Shown here: positions 14,700 through 31,064 of the stretch, piece after piece
Layout of the letters: each line of letters begins with the position of its first letter
Numbering within the stretch: the first letter of the stretch is position 1
NCBI RefSeq assembly: GCF_002285285.1
Contig: NZ_NSJF01000004.1
Coordinates: forward strand, 124,001 to 188,000
DNA from: Vandammella animalimorsus
Lineage (GTDB): Bacteria; Pseudomonadota; Gammaproteobacteria; Burkholderiales; Burkholderiaceae_C
Direction: 5' to 3'
Length of the DNA stretch: 64,000 bases
The notes under the pieces: model-generated
What the model was told of the DNA's origin: nothing
Database searches by the model: none
Seen by the model: the letters and a program-made list of their open reading frames with translations, nothing else
Position numbers and translations under genes: made by a program

Positions 14700-15980
14700 T
14701 CAAGCCTTCTCTGATTTGGGCACGGGCCCGCCGGCGAACAGCCAGGGCTTGTCCATCAGATAAGCGCCCATCAGCCTGAGGGCGGCATCGCGCCCATGGC
14801 GCACCAAGCCTTGCGCATGGAAGATCCGGCCATTGCGCAACGCCTGTTTTTGCACCTTGGCCACGCGCCCGGCTCGCAGCCGGGCCCATTGGGCCAACGC
14901 TGCAGGGATGGCCTGGGCCGGCGCGTCGGCCTGCAGCCCTTGCAGGCATTGCCCCAGCTGCTGGGCATCTTCGATCGCCATGGCTGCGCCCTGGGCCAGG
15001 AACGGCACCATGGGATGGGCCGCATCGCCCAGCAAGGCCATGCGGCCCGATGCCAGGGCCCGGGGTGACGGCACGGGCCGGCGGATGCGCAGCGGCCATT
15101 CCGTCCAGCGATAGCCCAGCGTGTTCATGCCGTGGGCCTCGATGGCCAGAATCGTATCTTTCAGATCTTTGGCCAACGGGCCATGCCGCTCAATGCTGCC
15201 CAGCACCGCCTGGATATCTGCACTGCCGCGCCTCGTGCTGTGCGCCAACGCCGTGTCGTTGGCAATCAAGACCACATTGAGCCAGTCGTTGCCCCGCAAG
15301 GGATAAGTCACCGCATGCAGGTACTTGCCCAGCCAGGCGCTGACCTGCTGGCTTCTCAGGCAATGCGGCAGCGCAGATTGACGGATGATGCCGCGATAGG
15401 CGGTGTAGCCTGAGCGAGACAGCGGCTCTTGTGCTGCCTCCACATTTGTTTGCTGGCGCAATCGGCCGCCAGCGCCATCGGCGATCAACAGCAGCTCACC
15501 TTGAAGCTGCTGCGTCACACCATCGGCGCCCGCCATGCGCAGGGAAACAGCCTGCCCAGCGCAGTGGCTGTCAATGGCCTGTACCTGGCCGGCCATGCGC
15601 AGCGTCAGGCGCTCGGTCTGCCTGGCGCGCTGCGCCAGGCAATTGAGCAAATCGGCCCGCAGCACAGTGGCATAGGGGGCGCCATAGCGCTGCTCCGAGC
15701 TCAAACCCAGCGGCAGCGTGCCCAGAACGGCGCCTGTATGCAGGTTTTTGGCAACCATGGCATGGGGCAGGCTGGAGACGGCCAATACATCCCGCTCCAA
15801 CCCCCAAGCGCGCAGGCAGCGCCAGGCATTCGGGCCGATTTGCAGGCCCGCGCCCACTTCAACGAACTGGGGGGTTTGCTCGATCAATGTGGTGGCAAAG
15901 CCTTGTTCGGCCAGCACGATGGCCGCACTCAGGCCCGCAATGCCGCCGCCCGCTACCAGTGCCTGTGATGTGGCCTGCAT
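14700..15980 (-). CDS. FAD-dependent monooxygenase (salicylate-hydroxylase-like)
   Basis: This is a 426-residue class A flavoprotein monooxygenase. The ADP-binding fold is GGGIAGLSAAIVLAEQG near residue 11, and the flavin ring motif is MALLGDAAHPMVPFLAQGAAMAIEDA near residue 300. The VGAGLQIGPNAWRCL block near residue 43 is like the 3-hydroxybenzoate/salicylate hydroxylase group. No aromatic catabolic genes are adjacent, so the substrate cannot be named. coaE lies 32 bases upstream on the same strand. Confidence 0.85.
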   Translation of the reverse strand: MQATSQALVAGGGIAGLSAAIVLAEQGFATTLIEQTPQFVEVGAGLQIGPNAWRCLRAWGLERDVLAVSSLPHAMVAKNLHTGAVLGTLPLGLSSEQRYGAPYATVLRADLLNCLAQRARQTERLTLRMAGQVQAIDSHCAGQAVSLRMAGADGVTQQLQGELLLIADGAGGRLRQQTNVEAAQEPLSRSGYTAYRGIIRQSALPHCLRSQQVSAWLGKYLHAVTYPLRGNDWLNVVLIANDTALAHSTRRGSADIQAVLGSIERHGPLAKDLKDTILAIEAHGMNTLGYRWTEWPLRIRRPVPSPRALASGRMALLGDAAHPMVPFLAQGAAMAIEDAQQLGQCLQGLQADAPAQAIPAALAQWARLRAGRVAKVQKQALRNGRIFHAQGLVRHGRDAALRLMGAYLMDKPWLFAGGPVPKSEKA

Positions 15981-23416: not shown

Positions 23417-23518
23417 GAAAAGCCTAAAGCCGGGCATGCCCGGCTTTCCATTTTTTGCATCTAGCTACAAAAGCATCAGCTTGTTAGCGGCCAGAGCACA
23501 AATCCCAGTGAACTAGTG
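23417..23518 (-). ncRNA. Type II-C tracrRNA
   Basis: An anti-repeat lies at 23488-23515. Its core, 23492-23511, is a 20-base exact match to the complement of the CRISPR repeat as written on the plus strand. Read on the minus strand it can pair with the crRNA repeat over about 24 bp, including one G-U pair. The tail forms a small hairpin (about 23461-23486, CUAACAAGC with GCUUUUGUAG) and then a perfect palindromic terminator at 23426-23447 followed by U-rich sequence. A TACAAT box at 23525-23530 sits 7 bases before the proposed start. The gene diverges from cas9. Confidence 0.85.
23426..23447 (-). terminator. tracrRNA terminator hairpin
   Basis: A perfect 22-base palindrome, AAAGCCGGGCA and its complement, is followed on the minus strand by AGGCTTTT. 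It sits where type II tracrRNAs end and probably also stabilises the Cas9-bound RNA. Confidence 0.8.
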
Positions 23519-23842
23519 GCGGCAATTGTAACCCCATCCGCTCTGCCTCTACATATCCATGCGCAATTATTTGGTCACGCACCCCAACACTGGCAATGCA
23601 CTGGTGGCGTAATCCCCAATTCAAGAACTCCACGCACACAAGCCACAAAATGTTAAATTGCGCGCAAACAGTGTCTCGCGGATAGCCTGCGAAGGGCTTC
23701 TGAGAGGCACTTAACCTGAGGTCATAAAACAGCAAAGAGGGGCTACAGCAAGTAGAGAGGGCCTTCGAGCCGCCCCTGATGACAAACATGGATGCCGCAC
23801 AGCATCCATCAATGCATGAATGTGTGGAAAGGGGCTGGTTTC
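23519..23842. other. Region between the tracrRNA and cas9 starts
   Basis: These 324 bases hold the tracrRNA promoter (TACAAT on the minus strand at 23525-23530) and must hold the cas promoter, for which I see no convincing -35/-10 pair. An AGGGGC/GCCCCT pair at about 23734-23780 could form a hairpin. The base composition is lower in G+C than the flanking chromosome. No gene is seen. Confidence 0.5.
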
Positions 23843-26800
23843 GTGTCAAGAAAAAGAAACATCATTCGTTACCGACTGGCTTTGGATCTGGGATCCACCT
23901 CGCTGGGATGGGCCATTCTGCGCTTGAATGCCGAAAACGAGCCTACTGCCATCATCAAGGCCGGCGTGCGCATCTTCAGCGATGGCCGAAACCCAAAGGA
24001 TGGCTCCTCTCTGGCCGTGACTCGCCGTACCGCCCGCTCCATGCGCCGCCGTCGCGACCGCCTGCTCAAGCGCAAGGCGCGCATGCTGGACAAGCTGATT
24101 GCGCATGGCTTCTTCCCACAGGACGAAGCCGCACGCAAGGCATTGGAGGCGCTCAATCCCTACCAGTTGCGCGCCGAGGGCTTGCAGCGCGCGCTGACGC
24201 CGGGTGAGTTCGCCCGCGCGCTGTTCCACATCAACCAGCGCCGGGGCTTCAAGAGCAACCGCAAGACCGACAAGAAAGACAACGACAGCGGCGCCCTCAA
24301 AACCGCCATCAGCCAACTGCGCCAGCAACTGCAAAACGAAAACGCCCGCACGGTAGGCGAATGGTTGTGGCAACGCCTGCAAGCCGGCCAAGGCACGCGT
24401 GCCCGCTACCGGGAAACACGCATCGCCACCGAGACAGGCAAGGGCAAGATCGACAAAAGCTACGACCTCTATATCGACCGCCAGATGGTGGCCGATGAGT
24501 TCGATGCGCTGTGGGCCGTGCAGGCGGCCTTCAACCCCGTACTGTTCAACGAGCAAGCACGGGCCGAACTGCGCGACACCCTGCTGCATCAACGCCCGTT
24601 GCGCCCGGTCAAGCCGGGGCGCTGCACTTTGCTGCCGGAAGAAGAGCGCGCCCCGCTGGCCCTGCCCAGTACGCAGCGCTTTCGCATCCTGCAAGAGGTG
24701 AATCACCTGCGAATCCTGCACCCGGACCTGCGTGAAGAAGCATTGAGGCTGGATCAGCGCGATGCCATCGTGGCCTTGCTGGAGGACAGGGGAAAAGTCA
24801 CATTCCAGGCCATGCGCAGAACACTCGACTTGGGTGATGCCGTGCAATTCAATTTGGAAGATGCCAAGCGCCGTGAACTCAAGGGCAATGCCACCACGGC
24901 GGCACTGTCGAAAAAGGAACTGTTCGGCGCTGCGTGGCGCGAATTTGACGAAGCCTTGCAGGACGACATCGTGCTGCGCTTGGTCACGGAAGAAAGCGAA
25001 GCCGAACTGGTGCAATGGCTGATCGAAAACACCGGCGTGGATGAGGCACGCGCCACGGCCATTGCCAACACCGGCTTGCCTGAAGGCTACGGCAGCCTGT
25101 GTCGCAAGGCACTGGCGCGCATCGTGCCCGCGCTACGGGCCGAGGTCATCACCTACGACAGGGCCGTGCAAGCTGCGGGTTTTGCACATCACAGCGATCT
25201 GGGCTTTGGCTTTGAGCATGATGATGACGAGGTGACGCAAATTGGCGAGCGCGTCATCGCATCCACAGGCGAGATCAAGGCTGTGCTGACTTTCAAGCAA
25301 CTGCCCTATTACGGTCGAGCCCTGCAACGTCATGTGGCCTTTGGCAGTGGCAAGCCCCAAGACCCGGAAGAAAAGCGCTACGGCAAGATCGCCAACCCCA
25401 CGGTGCACATCGGCCTGAACCAGCTGCGGCGCGTGGTCAATGACCTGATTCGCCGCTATGGCCACCCCACCGAAATCGTGGTAGAGCTGGCACGTGACTT
25501 GAAACAAAGCCGCGAGCAGAAGCTGGAAACTCAAAAACGCCAGAATGAAAACCAGGAGCGCAGGCAAAGAATTCGCAAGGAAATTTCAGATGCCTTCGGC
25601 CAGCAGGGTAGAGAAATTTCCCCGGAACGTGTCAAAGACGCCGACATCCAGAAATGGATCCTCTGGGAAGAGCTGAGCTTTACGCCTACTGACCGCCGCT
25701 GCCCCTACAGCGGCGTGCAAATCAGCGCAGCCATGTTGCTCAGTGACGAGGTGGAGATCGAACACATCCTGCCGTTTTCACAAACCCTGGACGACAGCCT
25801 GAACAACAAGACCGTGGCAATGCGCCAGGCCAACCGCATCAAGCGCAACCGCACGCCCTGGCAGGCGCGGCAGGACTTCGAGGCGCAGGGTTGGTCATAC
25901 GAAGGCATGCTGCAACGCGCCGAACGCATGCCCCGCGCCAAGCGCTACCGTTTTGCCGAGGATGGCTACGAACGTTGGCTGGGCGAGGACAAAGGCTTTC
26001 TGGCACGCGCGCTGAATGACACGCGGTACCTCTCACGCGTGGCCAAGGAATATCTCAAACTGATCTGCCCTGGCGGAGTGCGGGTGATTCCGGGGCAGCT
26101 CACGGGCATGCTGCGTCGGCATCTGGGCTTGAATGACGTACTGGGGCTCGATGGCAAAAAGAACCGCGACGACCATCGCCACCATGCTGTGGACGCCTGC
26201 GTGATCGGCGTTACCGACCAAGCACTCTTGCAACGCTTTGCCAACGCCAGCGAACTGCCCAAGATGCAGGGGCGCCACAAGTTGGCTCAGGACTTCGAGC
26301 CTCCTTGGCCTACGTATCGCGAACACGCGGCACGCGCCGTGAAAAACATCTGGGTCAGCCACCGCCCCGACCATGGGCATGAGGGCGGCATGATGGAAGA
26401 AACTTCCTACGGCATCAGCAAGGATGGGCGCATCAAGCAGCGGCGCAAGGCCGATGGCAGCCAAGGGCGCGAAGTCAGCAACCTGATCCGCATCAGCGAG
26501 CCAACCCAGCCCGAGCGCCACGGCCTGGACGCCGAAGGCCAGCCTTTGCCCTACAAAGGCTATGTCGGCGGCAGCAACTACTGCATCGAAATCACGTGCA
26601 ATGACAAAGGCAAATGGGAGGGCGAAGTGATCTCGACTTTCCGCGCCTATCAAATCGTGCGCAAACATGGGGTGGCGCGCTTGCGGCATCCTGGACTGGC
26701 GCAGAACGGGAAAGCCTTAATCATGCGCTTGATGATTGATGATTGCGTGCGCCTGGAACTGGATGGGCGAGAGGAAACAATGCGTGTGGTGAAGATCGGC

Positions 26801-26980
26801 AGTAATGGGCAAGTATTCATGGCGCCACTGCACGAAGCCAATGTGGATGCCAGAAACCGGGACAAGAACAATCCGTTCTCCTATGTCTCGAAAATGGCTG
26901 GATCTTTCCAGCAGGCCAAAGCCCGCCGCGTCACCATCTCGCCCATCGGCGAGTTGCGCGACCCCGGCTTCAAGGGCTGA
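23843..26980 (+). CDS. cas9: CRISPR-associated endonuclease Cas9, subtype II-C
   Basis: Cas9 is the crRNA/tracrRNA-guided nuclease that cuts target DNA. At 1045 residues it has the compact II-C size. RuvC-I is LALDLGSTSLGWAI with D15; the Arg-rich bridge helix covers about 57-85; REC lobes follow to about 500. RuvC-II has E548 in VVELARD, HNH has H641 in EHILPFSQ with N664, and RuvC-III has H781 and D784 in HHAVDA. The C-terminal 250 residues form the wedge and PAM-interacting part. All catalytic residues are present. The GTG at 23843 follows GAAAGGGG at 8 bases; in-frame ATGs lie at 23792 and 23816. cas1 follows by 14 bases. Confidence 0.97.
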   Translation: MSRKRNIIRYRLALDLGSTSLGWAILRLNAENEPTAIIKAGVRIFSDGRNPKDGSSLAVTRRTARSMRRRRDRLLKRKARMLDKLIAHGFFPQDEAARKALEALNPYQLRAEGLQRALTPGEFARALFHINQRRGFKSNRKTDKKDNDSGALKTAISQLRQQLQNENARTVGEWLWQRLQAGQGTRARYRETRIATETGKGKIDKSYDLYIDRQMVADEFDALWAVQAAFNPVLFNEQARAELRDTLLHQRPLRPVKPGRCTLLPEEERAPLALPSTQRFRILQEVNHLRILHPDLREEALRLDQRDAIVALLEDRGKVTFQAMRRTLDLGDAVQFNLEDAKRRELKGNATTAALSKKELFGAAWREFDEALQDDIVLRLVTEESEAELVQWLIENTGVDEARATAIANTGLPEGYGSLCRKALARIVPALRAEVITYDRAVQAAGFAHHSDLGFGFEHDDDEVTQIGERVIASTGEIKAVLTFKQLPYYGRALQRHVAFGSGKPQDPEEKRYGKIANPTVHIGLNQLRRVVNDLIRRYGHPTEIVVELARDLKQSREQKLETQKRQNENQERRQRIRKEISDAFGQQGREISPERVKDADIQKWILWEELSFTPTDRRCPYSGVQISAAMLLSDEVEIEHILPFSQTLDDSLNNKTVAMRQANRIKRNRTPWQARQDFEAQGWSYEGMLQRAERMPRAKRYRFAEDGYERWLGEDKGFLARALNDTRYLSRVAKEYLKLICPGGVRVIPGQLTGMLRRHLGLNDVLGLDGKKNRDDHRHHAVDACVIGVTDQALLQRFANASELPKMQGRHKLAQDFEPPWPTYREHAARAVKNIWVSHRPDHGHEGGMMEETSYGISKDGRIKQRRKADGSQGREVSNLIRISEPTQPERHGLDAEGQPLPYKGYVGGSNYCIEITCNDKGKWEGEVISTFRAYQIVRKHGVARLRHPGLAQNGKALIMRLMIDDCVRLELDGREETMRVVKIGSNGQVFMAPLHEANVDARNRDKNNPFSYVSKMAGSFQQAKARRVTISPIGELRDPGFKG

Positions 26981-26994
26981 GCAAGGGGCGTGAC

Positions 26995-27924
26995 ATGATT
27001 GGCCGCATTGTCGAAATCGCAGACGACCGGCGGCACCTATTCGTCAACCGCGGCTTCATGGTGGTGCGCGACACTGCAGGCGAGCGCAAAGAACTGGGGC
27101 AGGTGCCACTGGACGACATCGCCGCCGTCATCGCCAATGCCCACGGCATCAGCTACACCAACAACCTCCTGGTGGCCCTGGCCGAGCGCGGCGCGCCCTT
27201 CGTGCTGTGCGCGGCCAACCACAATGCCGTGGGCATGCTGCTGACGCTGGACGGCCATCACGTACAGGCCAAGCGCATCGAAGCGCAAATCGCCGCCAGC
27301 CTGCCCACGCACAAGCGGCTGTGGGCGGCCATCGTCAAATCCAAACTGGAACAACAAGCCGCCGCACTGGAGGCCGCAGGCGCACCCACTGCACCCTTGA
27401 CTGCATTGGTGCGCAAGGTCAAAAGCGGTGATCCGGAAAACGTCGAAGGCCAAGGCGCGCGGCGCTACTGGGGCTTGCTGTTCGGCAAGGACTTCCGTCG
27501 CGACCAAAACGCCGGCGGCCTCAACGCCCTGCTCAACTACGGCTACACCATCCTGCGCTCGGCCACCGCCCGCGCCGTGGTGGCCGCCGGCCTGCATCCC
27601 AGCATCGGCCTGCACCACAGCAATGATGGCAATGCCATGCGACTGGTGGATGACCTGATGGAACCCTTCCGCCCAGTCATCGACCTGAAAGTCTGGCAAT
27701 TGCAGCGCGCCGGTGAAGAACAGGTCACGCCCGCAGCCAAACGCGCCTTGGTGCACACGCTTTACGACGACATGCAAAGCCGTGCCGGCGTCACCCCGGT
27801 GATGGTCTGCATGCAGAAACTGGCCGTCTCGCTGGCCCAGGTGTATCTGGGCGAACGCGACAAGTTGGAACTGCCGCTGCCAGGCTTGCCGCTCGCTCTG
27901 GCCAAAGGTCTGGACCAGGAATGA
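26995..27924 (+). CDS. cas1: CRISPR adaptation integrase Cas1 (type II)
   Basis: Cas1 (309 aa) integrates new spacers as a Cas1-Cas2 complex. The N-terminal beta domain (to about residue 80) includes DRRHLFVNRGFMVVRD and the ISYTNNLLVALAERG block. The helical catalytic domain shows the expected Glu region before YWGLLFGKDFRRD, then NALLNYGYTILRSATARAV and the metal-binding His and acidic residues in GLHHSNDGNAMRLVDDLMEPFRP. It is in the cas9-cas1-cas2 operon, with cas2 starting 9 bases after its stop. Confidence 0.97.
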   Translation: MIGRIVEIADDRRHLFVNRGFMVVRDTAGERKELGQVPLDDIAAVIANAHGISYTNNLLVALAERGAPFVLCAANHNAVGMLLTLDGHHVQAKRIEAQIAASLPTHKRLWAAIVKSKLEQQAAALEAAGAPTAPLTALVRKVKSGDPENVEGQGARRYWGLLFGKDFRRDQNAGGLNALLNYGYTILRSATARAVVAAGLHPSIGLHHSNDGNAMRLVDDLMEPFRPVIDLKVWQLQRAGEEQVTPAAKRALVHTLYDDMQSRAGVTPVMVCMQKLAVSLAQVYLGERDKLELPLPGLPLALAKGLDQE

Positions 27925-27933
27925 CGCAATGCC

Positions 27934-28260
27934 ATGCTTTCAGGATACCGACTGATGTGGATGCTGGTGATGTTCGACCTGCCCGTGCTGACCAAAGCCG
28001 AGCGCAAGGCTGCCACCGACTTCCGCAAATCGCTGCTCGACATGGGCTTCGAGATGAGCCAGCTCAGCGTCTATCTGCGCTTTTGCACCAGTCAGACTCA
28101 ATTGGAAACTTACGCCAAAAGAGTCGAAGCTGTGCTGCCTTCAGGCGGTAAAGTCCACGTGCTGCAGTTCACCGACAAGCAGTACGAGCGGATCCTGACC
28201 TTTCACGGAAGAGCCAAGCAGCCGCCGTTGAAAGCACCCGAGCAGTTCACTCTTTTCTAG
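27934..28260 (+). CDS. cas2: CRISPR adaptation protein Cas2
   Basis: Cas2 (108 aa) is the dimeric core of the spacer-integration complex. The ferredoxin-like fold begins with the typical MLVMFDLPV strand and continues through YLRFCTSQTQLETYAKRVEAVLP and VHVLQFTDKQYERI. An in-frame ATG seven codons downstream could also serve. It is the last cas gene; no csn2 or cas4 follows, which supports subtype II-C. The array begins 70 bases downstream. Confidence 0.95.
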   Translation: MLSGYRLMWMLVMFDLPVLTKAERKAATDFRKSLLDMGFEMSQLSVYLRFCTSQTQLETYAKRVEAVLPSGGKVHVLQFTDKQYERILTFHGRAKQPPLKAPEQFTLF

Positions 28261-28296
28261 CTTGAAGCATGGTTCTCATCCCCCCCAAAAGCAGAA

Positions 28297-28319
28297 AACT
28301 CCTTGTAGAACAAGGAGTT
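28297..28319 (-). terminator. Hairpin between cas2 and the array, possible crRNA terminator
   Basis: A perfect 9-bp stem AACTCCTTG/CAAGGAGTT with a 5-base loop is followed on the minus strand by TTCTGCTTTT. It would end transcripts leaving the array on the minus strand. It could also fold in the cas mRNA. Confidence 0.55.
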
Positions 28320-28330
28320 ACTGCAGAGGG

Positions 28331-30658
28331 ATTTTAGATCACTGGGATTTGTGCTCTGACCGGAACTGCGGTTTACTACAATGGCCGTTTCGATCTATTT
28401 TAGATCACTGGGATTTGTGCTCTGACCGGAACTATTGCCGCGGCCATCTGGAAATGGCTGCGATTTTAGATCACTGGGATTTGTGCTCTGACCGGAACAC
28501 GTGAAGGCTGCTCGCCGATAGCAGAAAGATTTTAGATCACTGGGATTTGTGCTCTGACCGGAACGCATGGGTACGTGCATTCATCGCCCGCCACATTTTA
28601 GATCACTGGGATTTGTGCTCTGACCGGAACTCACCAGGCAAATGCAAGTACCCCATCAAAATTTTAGATCACTGGGATTTGTGCTCTGACCGGAACCCAG
28701 GCTGCCTAGGGGAAGAAGGCCTGACAATTTTAGATCACTGGGATTTGTGCTCTGACCGGAACCGAATTCTACTCGGACAATGCCAACCACAAATTTTAGA
28801 TCACTGGGATTTGTGCTCTGACCGGAACATGCGCGGGATTGAGTGTGTGAGCATGGGATTTTAGATCACTGGGATTTGTGCTCTGACCGGAACAGCCTCT
28901 ACATCGGCAGCAAAGAAGCAGGCATTTTAGATCACTGGGATTTGTGCTCTGACCGGAACTTTCCCAAAGTCAATAACAATCTACCTGTCATTTTAGATCA
29001 CTGGGATTTGTGCTCTGACCGGAACATGAGCGGGATTGAGTATGTTAGCATGGGCATTTTAGATCACTGGGATTTGTGCTCTGACCGGAACTGCGCTCGG
29101 TATGGTGAGCTATGAATTGTCATTTTAGATCACTGGGATTTGTGCTCTGACCGGAACAACAGAAGCCGTCTCACGAGGGTAGTCGGAATTTTAGATCACT
29201 GGGATTTGTGCTCTGACCGGAACGGCTCTGTGATTATCTATGATGAAGTTCAAATTTTAGATCACTGGGATTTGTGCTCTGACCGGAACTCTGGGCGAAA
29301 CAACTTACAAGGCGCTTGCATTTTAGATCACTGGGATTTGTGCTCTGACCGGAACACCAGCCAGGTTTGGAAGCAAACCACACTCATTTTAGATCACTGG
29401 GATTTGTGCTCTGACCGGAACGCCCCAGATGCTGGCCGTGTTAGTCCGGTGATTTTAGATCACTGGGATTTGTGCTCTGACCGGAACGCCTGGAGTGACT
29501 ACTATGTCTGTTCGTAAATTTTAGATCACTGGGATTTGTGCTCTGACCGGAACCGCCTAGGCGGCAGACAAATAAGCAAGCTTATTTTAGATCACTGGGA
29601 TTTGTGCTCTGACCGGAACACCATGTATTACTACAAGGCTGGTGCCGCGATTTTAGATCACTGGGATTTGTGCTCTGACCGGAACGCCGCGCTGGGCGAG
29701 CTTGAGATCCTGATTATTTTAGATCACTGGGATTTGTGCTCTGACCGGAACGTAACATTGGTGCATCACCTGCATCACCTGCATCACCTGCATCACCTGC
29801 ATCACCTGCATCACCTGCATCACCTGCATCACCTGCATTTTAGATCACTGGGATTTGTGCTCTGACCGGAACCAGGAAAAGCGTACATGGCCCAGAAAGG
29901 GAATTTTAGATCACTGGGATTTGTGCTCTGACCGGAACATCGGCGCTGAACTGCTGAAGCGCACAGCCATTTTAGATCACTGGGATTTGTGCTCTGACCG
30001 GAACCTGAGCATGTGCAGATCGCCCGGCTGCACCATTTTAGATCACTGGGATTTGTGCTCTGACCGGAACTGCCGTGCAGGACAGACTGAAAATCATTTG
30101 ATTTTAGATCACTGGGATTTGTGCTCTGACCGGAACCGTCGGCTTCGTACAGGAAGAACTGCTCACATTTTAGATCACTGGGATTTGTGCTCTGACCGGA
30201 ACCGATACGACAGTCCAACAGAACCTGATTTCATTTTAGATCACTGGGATTTGTGCTCTGACCGGAACTCGAATAGGCGCGTGCCGCATATATCGTCCAT
30301 TTTAGATCACTGGGATTTGTGCTCTGACCGGAACATGGCACGCGCAGGGCGCGGATTGGATGGTATTTTAGATCACTGGGATTTGTGCTCTGACCGGAAC
30401 GACGCGGGTGCGGAACGGGGGTTTCTGGGGATTTTAGATCACTGGGATTTGTGCTCTGACCGGAACCCCCCGGTACATCGGGCACAGGTACGCCTGATTT
30501 TAGATCACTGGGATTTGTGCTCTGACCGGAACCGCGTTTGACCTCCAGCGCCGCTGCGCCGTATTTTAGATCACTGGGATTTGTGCTCTGACCGGAACGC
30601 CTTGTGGTTCCACTGCGGCGGAGCCTTGATTTTAGATCACTGGGATTTGTGCTCTGAC
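28331..30658 (-). CRISPR. CRISPR array, 34 full repeats plus one truncated repeat, 34 spacers
   Basis: The first full repeat is 28331-28366 and the last is 30563-30598, all 36 bp and, as far as I read them, identical. A 30-bp truncated repeat at 30629-30658 lacks six bases at its right end. Spacers are 30 nt except spacer 8 (29 nt) and spacer 22 (85 nt, 29752-29836). On the minus strand each repeat begins GTTCCGGTCAG and ends GATCTAAAAT; the TAAAAT end resembles the repeat-borne -10 promoters of Neisseria and Campylobacter II-C arrays. With the anti-repeat orientation, this puts crRNA synthesis on the minus strand, opposite to the cas genes. Confidence 0.98.
29752..29836. repeat. Tandem 9-mer array inside CRISPR spacer 22
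   Basis: After ten unique bases the spacer consists of eight perfect copies of TGCATCACC plus TGC, and the following CRISPR repeat supplies two more matching bases. The rest of the array has 29-30 nt spacers, so this one appears to have expanded by about six units. Confidence 0.95.
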
Positions 30659-30764: not shown

Positions 30765-31064
30765 TCAGGCCGCCGTGCATTGAAAGGGCTGAATTTTTGC
30801 CAGCTCGTCTGCGGCATTTTCTTTAGCGGTGCGCAGGTCATATTCAGACTGAAGGTTGACCCAGCTTCGCGCATCAGTGTTGAAGAACGCGGCCAGGCGC
30901 AGGGCGGTGTCTGCGGAGATGGAGCGTTTGCCATGCACGATCTCGTTGATCCGACGCGGCGGCACGCCGATGGCCTTGGCCAGGGCGTATTGGCTAATGC
31001 CCATGGGCGCCAAAAACTCCCCGTTCAGAATCTCGCCGGGGTGGGGCCATGTGAATTGGGTCAT
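30765..31064 (-). CDS. higA: HigA-family antitoxin (XRE helix-turn-helix)
   Basis: This 99-residue protein matches the HigA/VapA addiction-module antidote family: HPGEILNGEFLAPMGISQYALAKAIGVPPRRINEIVHGKRSI is an XRE-type helix-turn-helix, followed by DTALRLAAFFNTDARSWVNLQSEYDL. Such antitoxins bind their own operator and neutralise the HigB mRNA nuclease. A GAAAGGGA ribosome site precedes the ATG. The partner toxin gene immediately upstream is broken, so this antitoxin is now an orphan. It lies between the CRISPR array and the DUF72 gene. Confidence 0.9.
   Translation of the reverse strand: MTQFTWPHPGEILNGEFLAPMGISQYALAKAIGVPPRRINEIVHGKRSISADTALRLAAFFNTDARSWVNLQSEYDLRTAKENAADELAKIQPFQCTAA

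Follow-up and report, generated by a model that had tools for sequence, protein, structure and literature searches.

A type II-C CRISPR-Cas9 locus of Vandammella animalimorsus with predicted minus-strand guides, a candidate leader-end terminator and close relatives that differ in their predicted PAM

The window, a 64,000-nt stretch of a Vandammella animalimorsus genome (3.08 Mb in 13 contigs), holds a CRISPR-Cas9 locus at positions 23417–30658. A rightward three-gene operon, cas9-cas1-cas2 (23792–28260), is followed by a CRISPR array (28331–30658), and a minus-strand anti-repeat lies upstream of the operon. These edges had been placed correctly in the initial annotation, and the functional unit also takes in a leader (28261–28330) that lies within them. 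The rightward orientation of the three cas genes, likewise proposed there, was borne out by open reading frames and NCBIfam models: Cas9 (23792–26980, plus strand) scored 625 bits against TIGR01865 (cut-off 100), the type II Cas1 (26995–27924, plus strand) 234.6 bits against TIGR03639 (cut-off 120) and Cas2 (27934–28260, plus strand) 60.4 bits against TIGR01573 (cut-off 24.5). The length of 1045 aa previously given for Cas9 matches an in-frame GTG start at 23843, but an ATG 17 codons upstream, at 23792, gives 1062 aa instead; the codons upstream of the GTG are also kept in a close relative, locus L005. The four RuvC and HNH motifs LDLGSTS, VVELARDL, EIEHILPFS and HHAVDAC were all found, in agreement with the earlier claim of intact catalytic residues, which lie within these stretches.

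A Pfam scan of the eight neighbouring ORFs found neither csn2 nor cas4, and the gap between cas2 and the array is without any gene. By sequence, the best solved relatives of the window Cas9 are compact Cas9s. The description as a complete type II-C locus is supported by the operon content, the Cas families (a type II Cas1 and a compact Cas9 with RuvC and HNH motifs), the array and the anti-repeat of a predicted tracrRNA. The same arrangement was found in a relative locus, L158, the repeat of which is that of Neisseria meningitidis; the Cas9 of its genome (G163) is 32–36 % identical to that of the window in the matched parts. The II-C systems of Neisseria, Pasteurella and Campylobacter, as presented in the available text of PMC3936727, share with the window the cas9-cas1-cas2 order and a compact Cas9 and, as predicted for the window, an oppositely transcribed array and a tracrRNA, but differ from it in the repeat sequence and the Cas9 C-terminal domain. 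The locus is thus an ordinary member of an already known class, in a little-studied genus; a literature search for Vandammella and CRISPR found no paper.

A scan of genomes confirmed 26 loci from 43 candidate stretches, and a Cas9 search gave matches in 30 of 199 genomes. Of the 26 named loci, 22 carry an array downstream of cas9, with none seen in L011, L018, L020 and L021; among the whole-genome stretches, the order cas9, cas1, cas2 was kept in 26/26, with an array behind in 23. The nearest Cas9s in named genomes were those of V. animalimorsus (L005) and Comamonadaceae bacterium OH2545_COT-014 (L002), at 88 and 89 % identity respectively over the best segment. Genomes of the same genus as the window included G006 (V. 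animalimorsus, carrying L005) and G009 (Allofranklinella schreckenbergeri, carrying L025). Another close relative, L008, comes from a record named Lysobacteraceae bacterium NML07-0707, a gammaproteobacterial family, so that, provided the record is correctly named, the locus has passed from one class to another.

The array (minus strand) consists of 35 repeats and 34 spacers, a number of repeats that by itself excludes a chance origin. The crRNA repeat reads GTTCCGGTCAGAGCACAAATCCCAGTGATCTAAAAT and ends in a −10-like TAAAAT. The repeats had been described as uniform, which holds for repeats 1–34, all identical 36-mers, but not for the last (30629–30658), which is shortened to 30 nt. Spacer length is 30 nt in 32 cases, 29 nt in one and 85 nt in one. 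The long spacer (29752–29836, minus strand) is mostly a 9-nt tandem repeat, with about 8.6 copies of TGCATCACC, and no second spacer of this kind was found among 916 spacers from the 26 loci. It is probably a slipped-strand expansion on the side away from the guide seed, leaving the unique seed part intact. Spacers 28829–28857 and 29026–29055 differ at 3/29 positions and look like two variants of a single coding target; a degenerate pattern made from the pair gave 0 matches in viral contigs. A separate irregularity was seen in L002 at 14762–14804, where a repeat is partly duplicated inside the array and a 43-nt ‘spacer’ opens with a repeat’s end.

The two ends of the arrays differ. For 19 arrays both ends could be read (window counted; far end within fetched DNA, L112–L114 excluded). 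The cas2-side repeat equals the consensus in every one of them, and the far repeat carries mutations in 15, the unmutated ones being L003, L014, L016 and L022. Once 12 whole-genome arrays are added, the far ends of which are placed less surely, the far repeat is mutated in 18/31. In the window, the oldest or ‘extra’ repeat (30629–30658, minus strand) has lost six guide-proximal nucleotides. From this asymmetry we infer that new spacers join at the cas2 end. Similar patterns appear in the available text of two reports, where II-C spacers are acquired at the 3' end (PMC12638026) and the oldest repeat carries mutations, chiefly within its first 15 nt, in 60 % of II-C arrays (Feussner et al., PMC12080349), which like the window places the mutations in the guide-proximal part.

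The predicted tracrRNA (23417–23518, minus strand) comprises an anti-repeat (23515–23488), a tail and a terminator-like hairpin (23447–23426) with a T-rich end. The anti-repeat pairs with the repeats at 93 % over 28 nt, accounting for 24 of the 25 inverted pairs listed (45 found); the remaining listed pair spans 43 nt at 79 %. When up to 700 nt upstream of cas9 were searched in 22 loci (window counted), the best anti-repeat lay on the minus strand in 20, was tied in L014 and lay on the plus strand in L019. The L019 copy could be an inverted tracrRNA gene or a stray repeat. On the minus strand, the anti-repeat is followed by a conserved core, CGCTAACA, and then by a hairpin with a T-rich end, in an alignment that kept 19 of the 22 rows (L014, L016 and L019 dropped); the terminal stem shows compensatory changes across the aligned loci. 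A terminator scan of the window (16 sites vs 8.5 in shuffles) lists this hairpin as terminator-like on both strands, the stem being nearly palindromic so that it leaves the strand undecided when taken alone.

Further indications of the guide strand came from the repeats and the targets. All 30 distinct repeats, drawn from 36 arrays, end in TAnAnT, precisely TA[GAT]A[AC]T, when read on the minus strand, which resembles a −10 hexamer; a sigma-70 scan called no site at the repeat ends on that strand (2 sites vs 3.5 in shuffles). Protospacer flanks are most biased 5–6 nt off, on the side that is 3' only with minus-strand guides. Counting G-U against A-C pairs as a strand test was dropped as uninformative, with counts of 7 to 2 for the repeat:anti-repeat duplex (spurious L019 row included) and, for the leader hairpin described below, of 19 to 20. 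The placement of the RNAs on the minus strand in the initial annotation is therefore supported, as far as sequence can support it, by the side of the anti-repeat, the tracrRNA core and hairpin, the repeat ends, the flank bias and the leader hairpin.

The converse arrangement would be that of type II-A, with plus-strand guides transcribed out of the leader into the array, and is exceedingly unlikely. In its favour, the array has the leader at its 5' end when read on the plus strand, leader-driven transcription occurs in other CRISPR types and the L019 anti-repeat is on the plus strand. Plus-strand guides would, however, leave the flank bias on the side opposite to that of a type II PAM and run against the 20/22 minus-strand anti-repeats and the 30/30 repeats with TAnAnT at their minus-strand end. 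They would also break the published II-C rule of an array transcribed opposite to the cas genes (Fonfara et al., available text of PMC3936727), and the initial annotation’s implied surprise at the ‘opposite strand’ does not hold, such transcription having already been described there. Minus-strand guides would likewise agree with II-C promoters carried in the repeats and pointing to the variable end (Hoikkala et al., available text of PMC8092290). The polarity of transcription relative to acquisition is the same as in those arrays, but the Flavobacterium columnare repeats, in the part of PMC8092290 available, lack the cited TAAAT promoter sequence, unlike the window repeats, each of which ends in TAAAAT.

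The leader (28261–28330, no strand assigned) lies at the cas2 or newest-spacer end and is alike among arrays, with a mean ungapped identity of 0.56 over the 40 nt beside the first repeat (22 arrays) vs 0.26 beyond the last repeat (19 arrays). Inside this 70-nt gap between cas2 and the first repeat is a terminator-like hairpin for array transcripts (28291–28324, minus strand), with an inner stem of 10 pairs (28297–28319), an outer stem of 4 (28291–28324) and a T-rich tail. The fold of 50 nt of the leader reaches −25.9 kcal/mol (z = −5.1). In the direction of a minus-strand RNA, a stem that holds G+C is followed by a T-run; for the cas transcript there is no T-run at the hairpin. Across 36 arrays, compensatory changes were found in 10/14 pairs, 89 % of cells were paired and the covariation score was reached by 0/500 shuffles. 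G-U cells (19) were not in excess of C-A and A-C cells (20), so that the covariation alone leaves the strand unfixed.

A hairpin rule of at least 7 pairs, at least 3 of them G-C, a loop of 3–8 and at least 5 T in the next 9 was applied to both strands. Such a hairpin was present at the leader on the minus strand in 28/36 arrays and on the plus strand in 3/36 (L022, L168 and L176), at the far ends in 0/31 on either strand (a control in which 12/31 arrays were ended by a walk that may halt early at a decayed repeat) and in 0.6 % of 3,600 mononucleotide shuffles. The minus-strand misses were L003, L006, L010, L012, L014, L016, L024 and L025, with L003 and L025 passing once one mismatch was allowed. 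The T-run averaged 5.3 T in 9 on the minus side vs 2.0 on the plus side and was stronger on the minus side in 31 of 35 hairpin-bearing arrays. The rule, relaxed by one mismatch, was also applied to ten distant II-C loci from the same order, where 8/10 leaders passed on the minus strand (L163 weakly; L157 and L161 failed) and 1/10 on the plus strand (L163), while 1/8 far ends passed on the minus strand (L157); the leader hairpins of these loci have other sequences, T-tails and an equal position. Together these patterns suggest that the leader hairpin works as a terminator of minus-strand array transcripts. The predicted array transcripts and the cas operon face each other across the leader gap, and a terminator there would thus shield cas2-cas1-cas9 from antisense RNA, whatever number of spacers is added.

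Alternatively, the hairpin could be a DNA element used by Cas1-Cas2 for integration at the leader end. It occurs only at the acquisition end, its sequence is kept as well as its structure (five invariant columns across the 36 arrays) and its distance to the newest repeat is 11–12 nt in 23 of the 35 hairpin-bearing arrays. As a replacement for termination, this reading is rather unlikely, given a T-run mostly on the minus side (31/35 arrays), stem letters that vary by compensation and T-tailed hairpins that differ in sequence but not in position in 8/10 distant II-C loci, one of them weak. Termination is preferred here, and the hairpin may serve both roles together. No report of a terminator at the leader end came up in literature searches, mostly without subscription papers, and the available text of PMC12638026, PMC13187072 and PMC10309648 describes none, the last reporting no significant terminator in its locus. 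Terminators near II-C arrays have been reported by Feussner et al. (available text of PMC12080349), in 31/260 systems and with no enrichment over other intergenic regions. Those belong to the oldest end, upstream of the array, whereas in 28/36 arrays here the hairpin of the window type is part of the leader and thus of the newest end.

To identify spacer targets, the window array was compared as one sequence with 399 relative genomes and 299 family genomes (overlapping sets), and the 916 spacers from 26 loci (912 of 24–36 nt as queries) were compared locally with the fetched stretches. A credible site (at most 3 mismatches) was found for 3 of the 34 window spacers, all three on the minus strand. 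Spacer 30005–30034 matches 30/30 a gene with Mu transposase domains in a Mu-like V. animalimorsus prophage (G006), and also IMG/VR contigs; 30533–30562 matches 28/30 a phage-tail-repeat protein gene in the same-genus genome G008; and 28894–28923 matches 27/30 a replication-initiation protein gene in G225. Conversely, the V. animalimorsus locus L005 carries a spacer (15290–15319) with a 30/30 match in contig C2 of the window’s own genome, in a Mu-like prophage about 200 nt beyond Mu-type transposase and transposition-protein genes, and another (15224–15253) with a 30/30 match to Mu-like contigs at the portal gene (gene judged on L095). Such reciprocal spacers between two members of one genus suggest recent use within it. 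Outside the array and anti-repeat, the window array had no match to its own genome below E 0.074. Some spacers of relatives match chromosomal genes of other bacteria with 1–3 mismatches, as for L005 15422–15451 (signal peptidase II) and L002 17416–17445 (GDPD), both in further members of the family; these two were perhaps taken from transforming DNA.

The comparison of the 34 spacers with phages and plasmids, proposed at the outset as a check, gave no credible target in those collections for the window array (sole phage hit at E 3), its three matches coming from relatives’ genomes. A Limnohabitans plasmid hit was set aside, as it spans repeat, spacer and repeat and is probably another CRISPR array. 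The arrays of L002, L004, L005 and L009 were also searched against phages, and that of L002 against plasmids; matches to BcepSauron (L004) and Variovorax phage V45v66 (L009) were used, and weak ones to Gordonia, Streptomyces, Synechococcus, Staphylococcus and Caballeronia were set aside. Degenerate patterns of two single spacers gave 1 and 0 matches in viral contigs. Protein searches in viral contigs found no relative for 2 of 5 queries, and 19, 15 and 4 loci for the other three. The one match to a degenerate pattern (in L182), with 7/30 mismatches to spacer 28367–28396, was kept out of the PAM count. That 31 of the 34 spacers lack a credible target here might point to a decayed, non-working copy, but this is very unlikely for a locus with open reading frames, intact motif stretches, 34 identical repeats and the two spacers differing at 3/29 positions, as if acquired repeatedly against one target. 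A complete type II-C immune locus, working as outlined below, is very probable on the sequence evidence.

According to the initial annotation, neither the PAM nor the targets can be read from the window; this is true for the window alone, but the relatives yield both in part. Protospacer flanks were counted from one best site per spacer with at most 5 mismatches, ties being settled by locus name and a filter removing repeat-like flanks. For nine spacers of the window, L002 and L005 (0–3 mismatches), position +5 was C in seven, A in one and T in one, and +6 was T in seven and C in two. The most biased of 40 flank columns was the 3' position +6 (simulated P = 0.004), and the six sites judged phage-derived all had T at +6 (P = 0.003), the copy used there for 30005–30034 having T at +5; these and the following probabilities assume independent letters and leave the choice of mismatch limit and classes out of account. 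The PAM predicted from these flanks is N4C(T/C), which falls on the correct side for guides from the minus strand; the prediction is weak at the single-base level. The exception is the perfect phage match of L005 15290, with A at +5 (N4AT); three of the nine spacers have sites in chromosomal genes or genes of unjudged origin, an equally good alternative site for 30005–30034 (in L117) has T at +5, and poorer sites of L002 17416 have A or G there. L005_15686 (4 mismatches, C at +5 and +6) was left out of the counts.

A different preference was found in other relatives. For seven spacers of L004, L025 and L009 (1–4 mismatches), +5 was A in 7/7 (P = 0.00125), vs 1/9 in the window, L002 and L005 (Fisher P = 0.0014); L003, with two distinct spacers (G at +5, 3–4 mismatches), was placed in neither class. 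The Cas9 C-terminal domains of L002 and L005 are 91–97 % identical to that of the window. Those of L004, L008 and L025 are 93–95 % identical among themselves and 43–47 % to the window, L002 and L005, vs 81–94 % for the backbone; L005 and L008 in particular share 94 % of the backbone and 43 % of the domain. By sequence comparison, this is a natural swap of the C-terminal domain. The L009 Cas9 shows no such swap (67 % and 75 %), yet shares with them an Asn at the position of His 1014 in the window. This position is a hypothetical determinant, chosen after the flanks were known since the mapping of the position-5 residue of Nme1Cas9 failed, the C-terminal domains aligning poorly; the ORF taken for the L158 Cas9 does not resemble Cas9 and was unusable for that mapping.

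That closely related II-C Cas9s can differ in PAM, and that their C-terminal domains can be exchanged, is already known from the Nme1Cas9 orthologs, which have differing PAMs and exchangeable PAM-interacting domains (available text of PMC9433092). The present Cas9s resemble these in being close, with differing C-terminal domains and differing base preference at position 5, but belong to another branch, and Acidovorax, Comamonas and Burkholderiales are absent from the main text of that report. A literature search for II-C domain swaps with all aspects combined returned no paper, and no PAM study of Acidovorax-like Cas9s was among the matches listed.

The features above fit a mechanism in which transcription, termination, cleavage, the acquisition end and the exact PAM are predictions. 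A minus-strand −10 element in each repeat would start crRNA precursors, which would run from inside the repeats toward cas2 and be stopped by the leader hairpin, about 11 nt past the newest repeat. The precursors would pair with the minus-strand tracrRNA made upstream of cas9, and the guided Cas9 would cut invading DNA, from Mu-like and other phages, that carries N4C(T/C) 3' of the target. Each spacer added by Cas1-Cas2 would enter at the cas2 end, with the terminator on one side and the newest repeat on the other. Going further, a joint reading may be advanced tentatively, as somewhat doubtful when taken whole: that the leader holds the array’s own terminator in this II-C branch, and probably more widely, and that one residue close to the Cas9 C-terminus, His 1014 in the window and Asn in its relatives, shifts the PAM from N4C(T/C) to N4A, having been moved in certain lineages through exchange of the whole domain. 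With this locus comes a further branch of compact Cas9s for which a short PAM is predicted, and the relatives contribute that PAM, phage targets (some reciprocal within the genus), the PAM-domain swap and the candidate leader-end terminator. The natural L005/L008 pair makes PAM switching testable, and the leader hairpin is a concrete, testable candidate for where II-C array transcripts end.

Adjoining the old end of the array, on the minus strand at 30765–31064, is a gene for a helix-turn-helix protein resembling HigA-type antitoxins (Pfam HTH_3), and the toxin-like frame beside it appears, by eye, to be broken.
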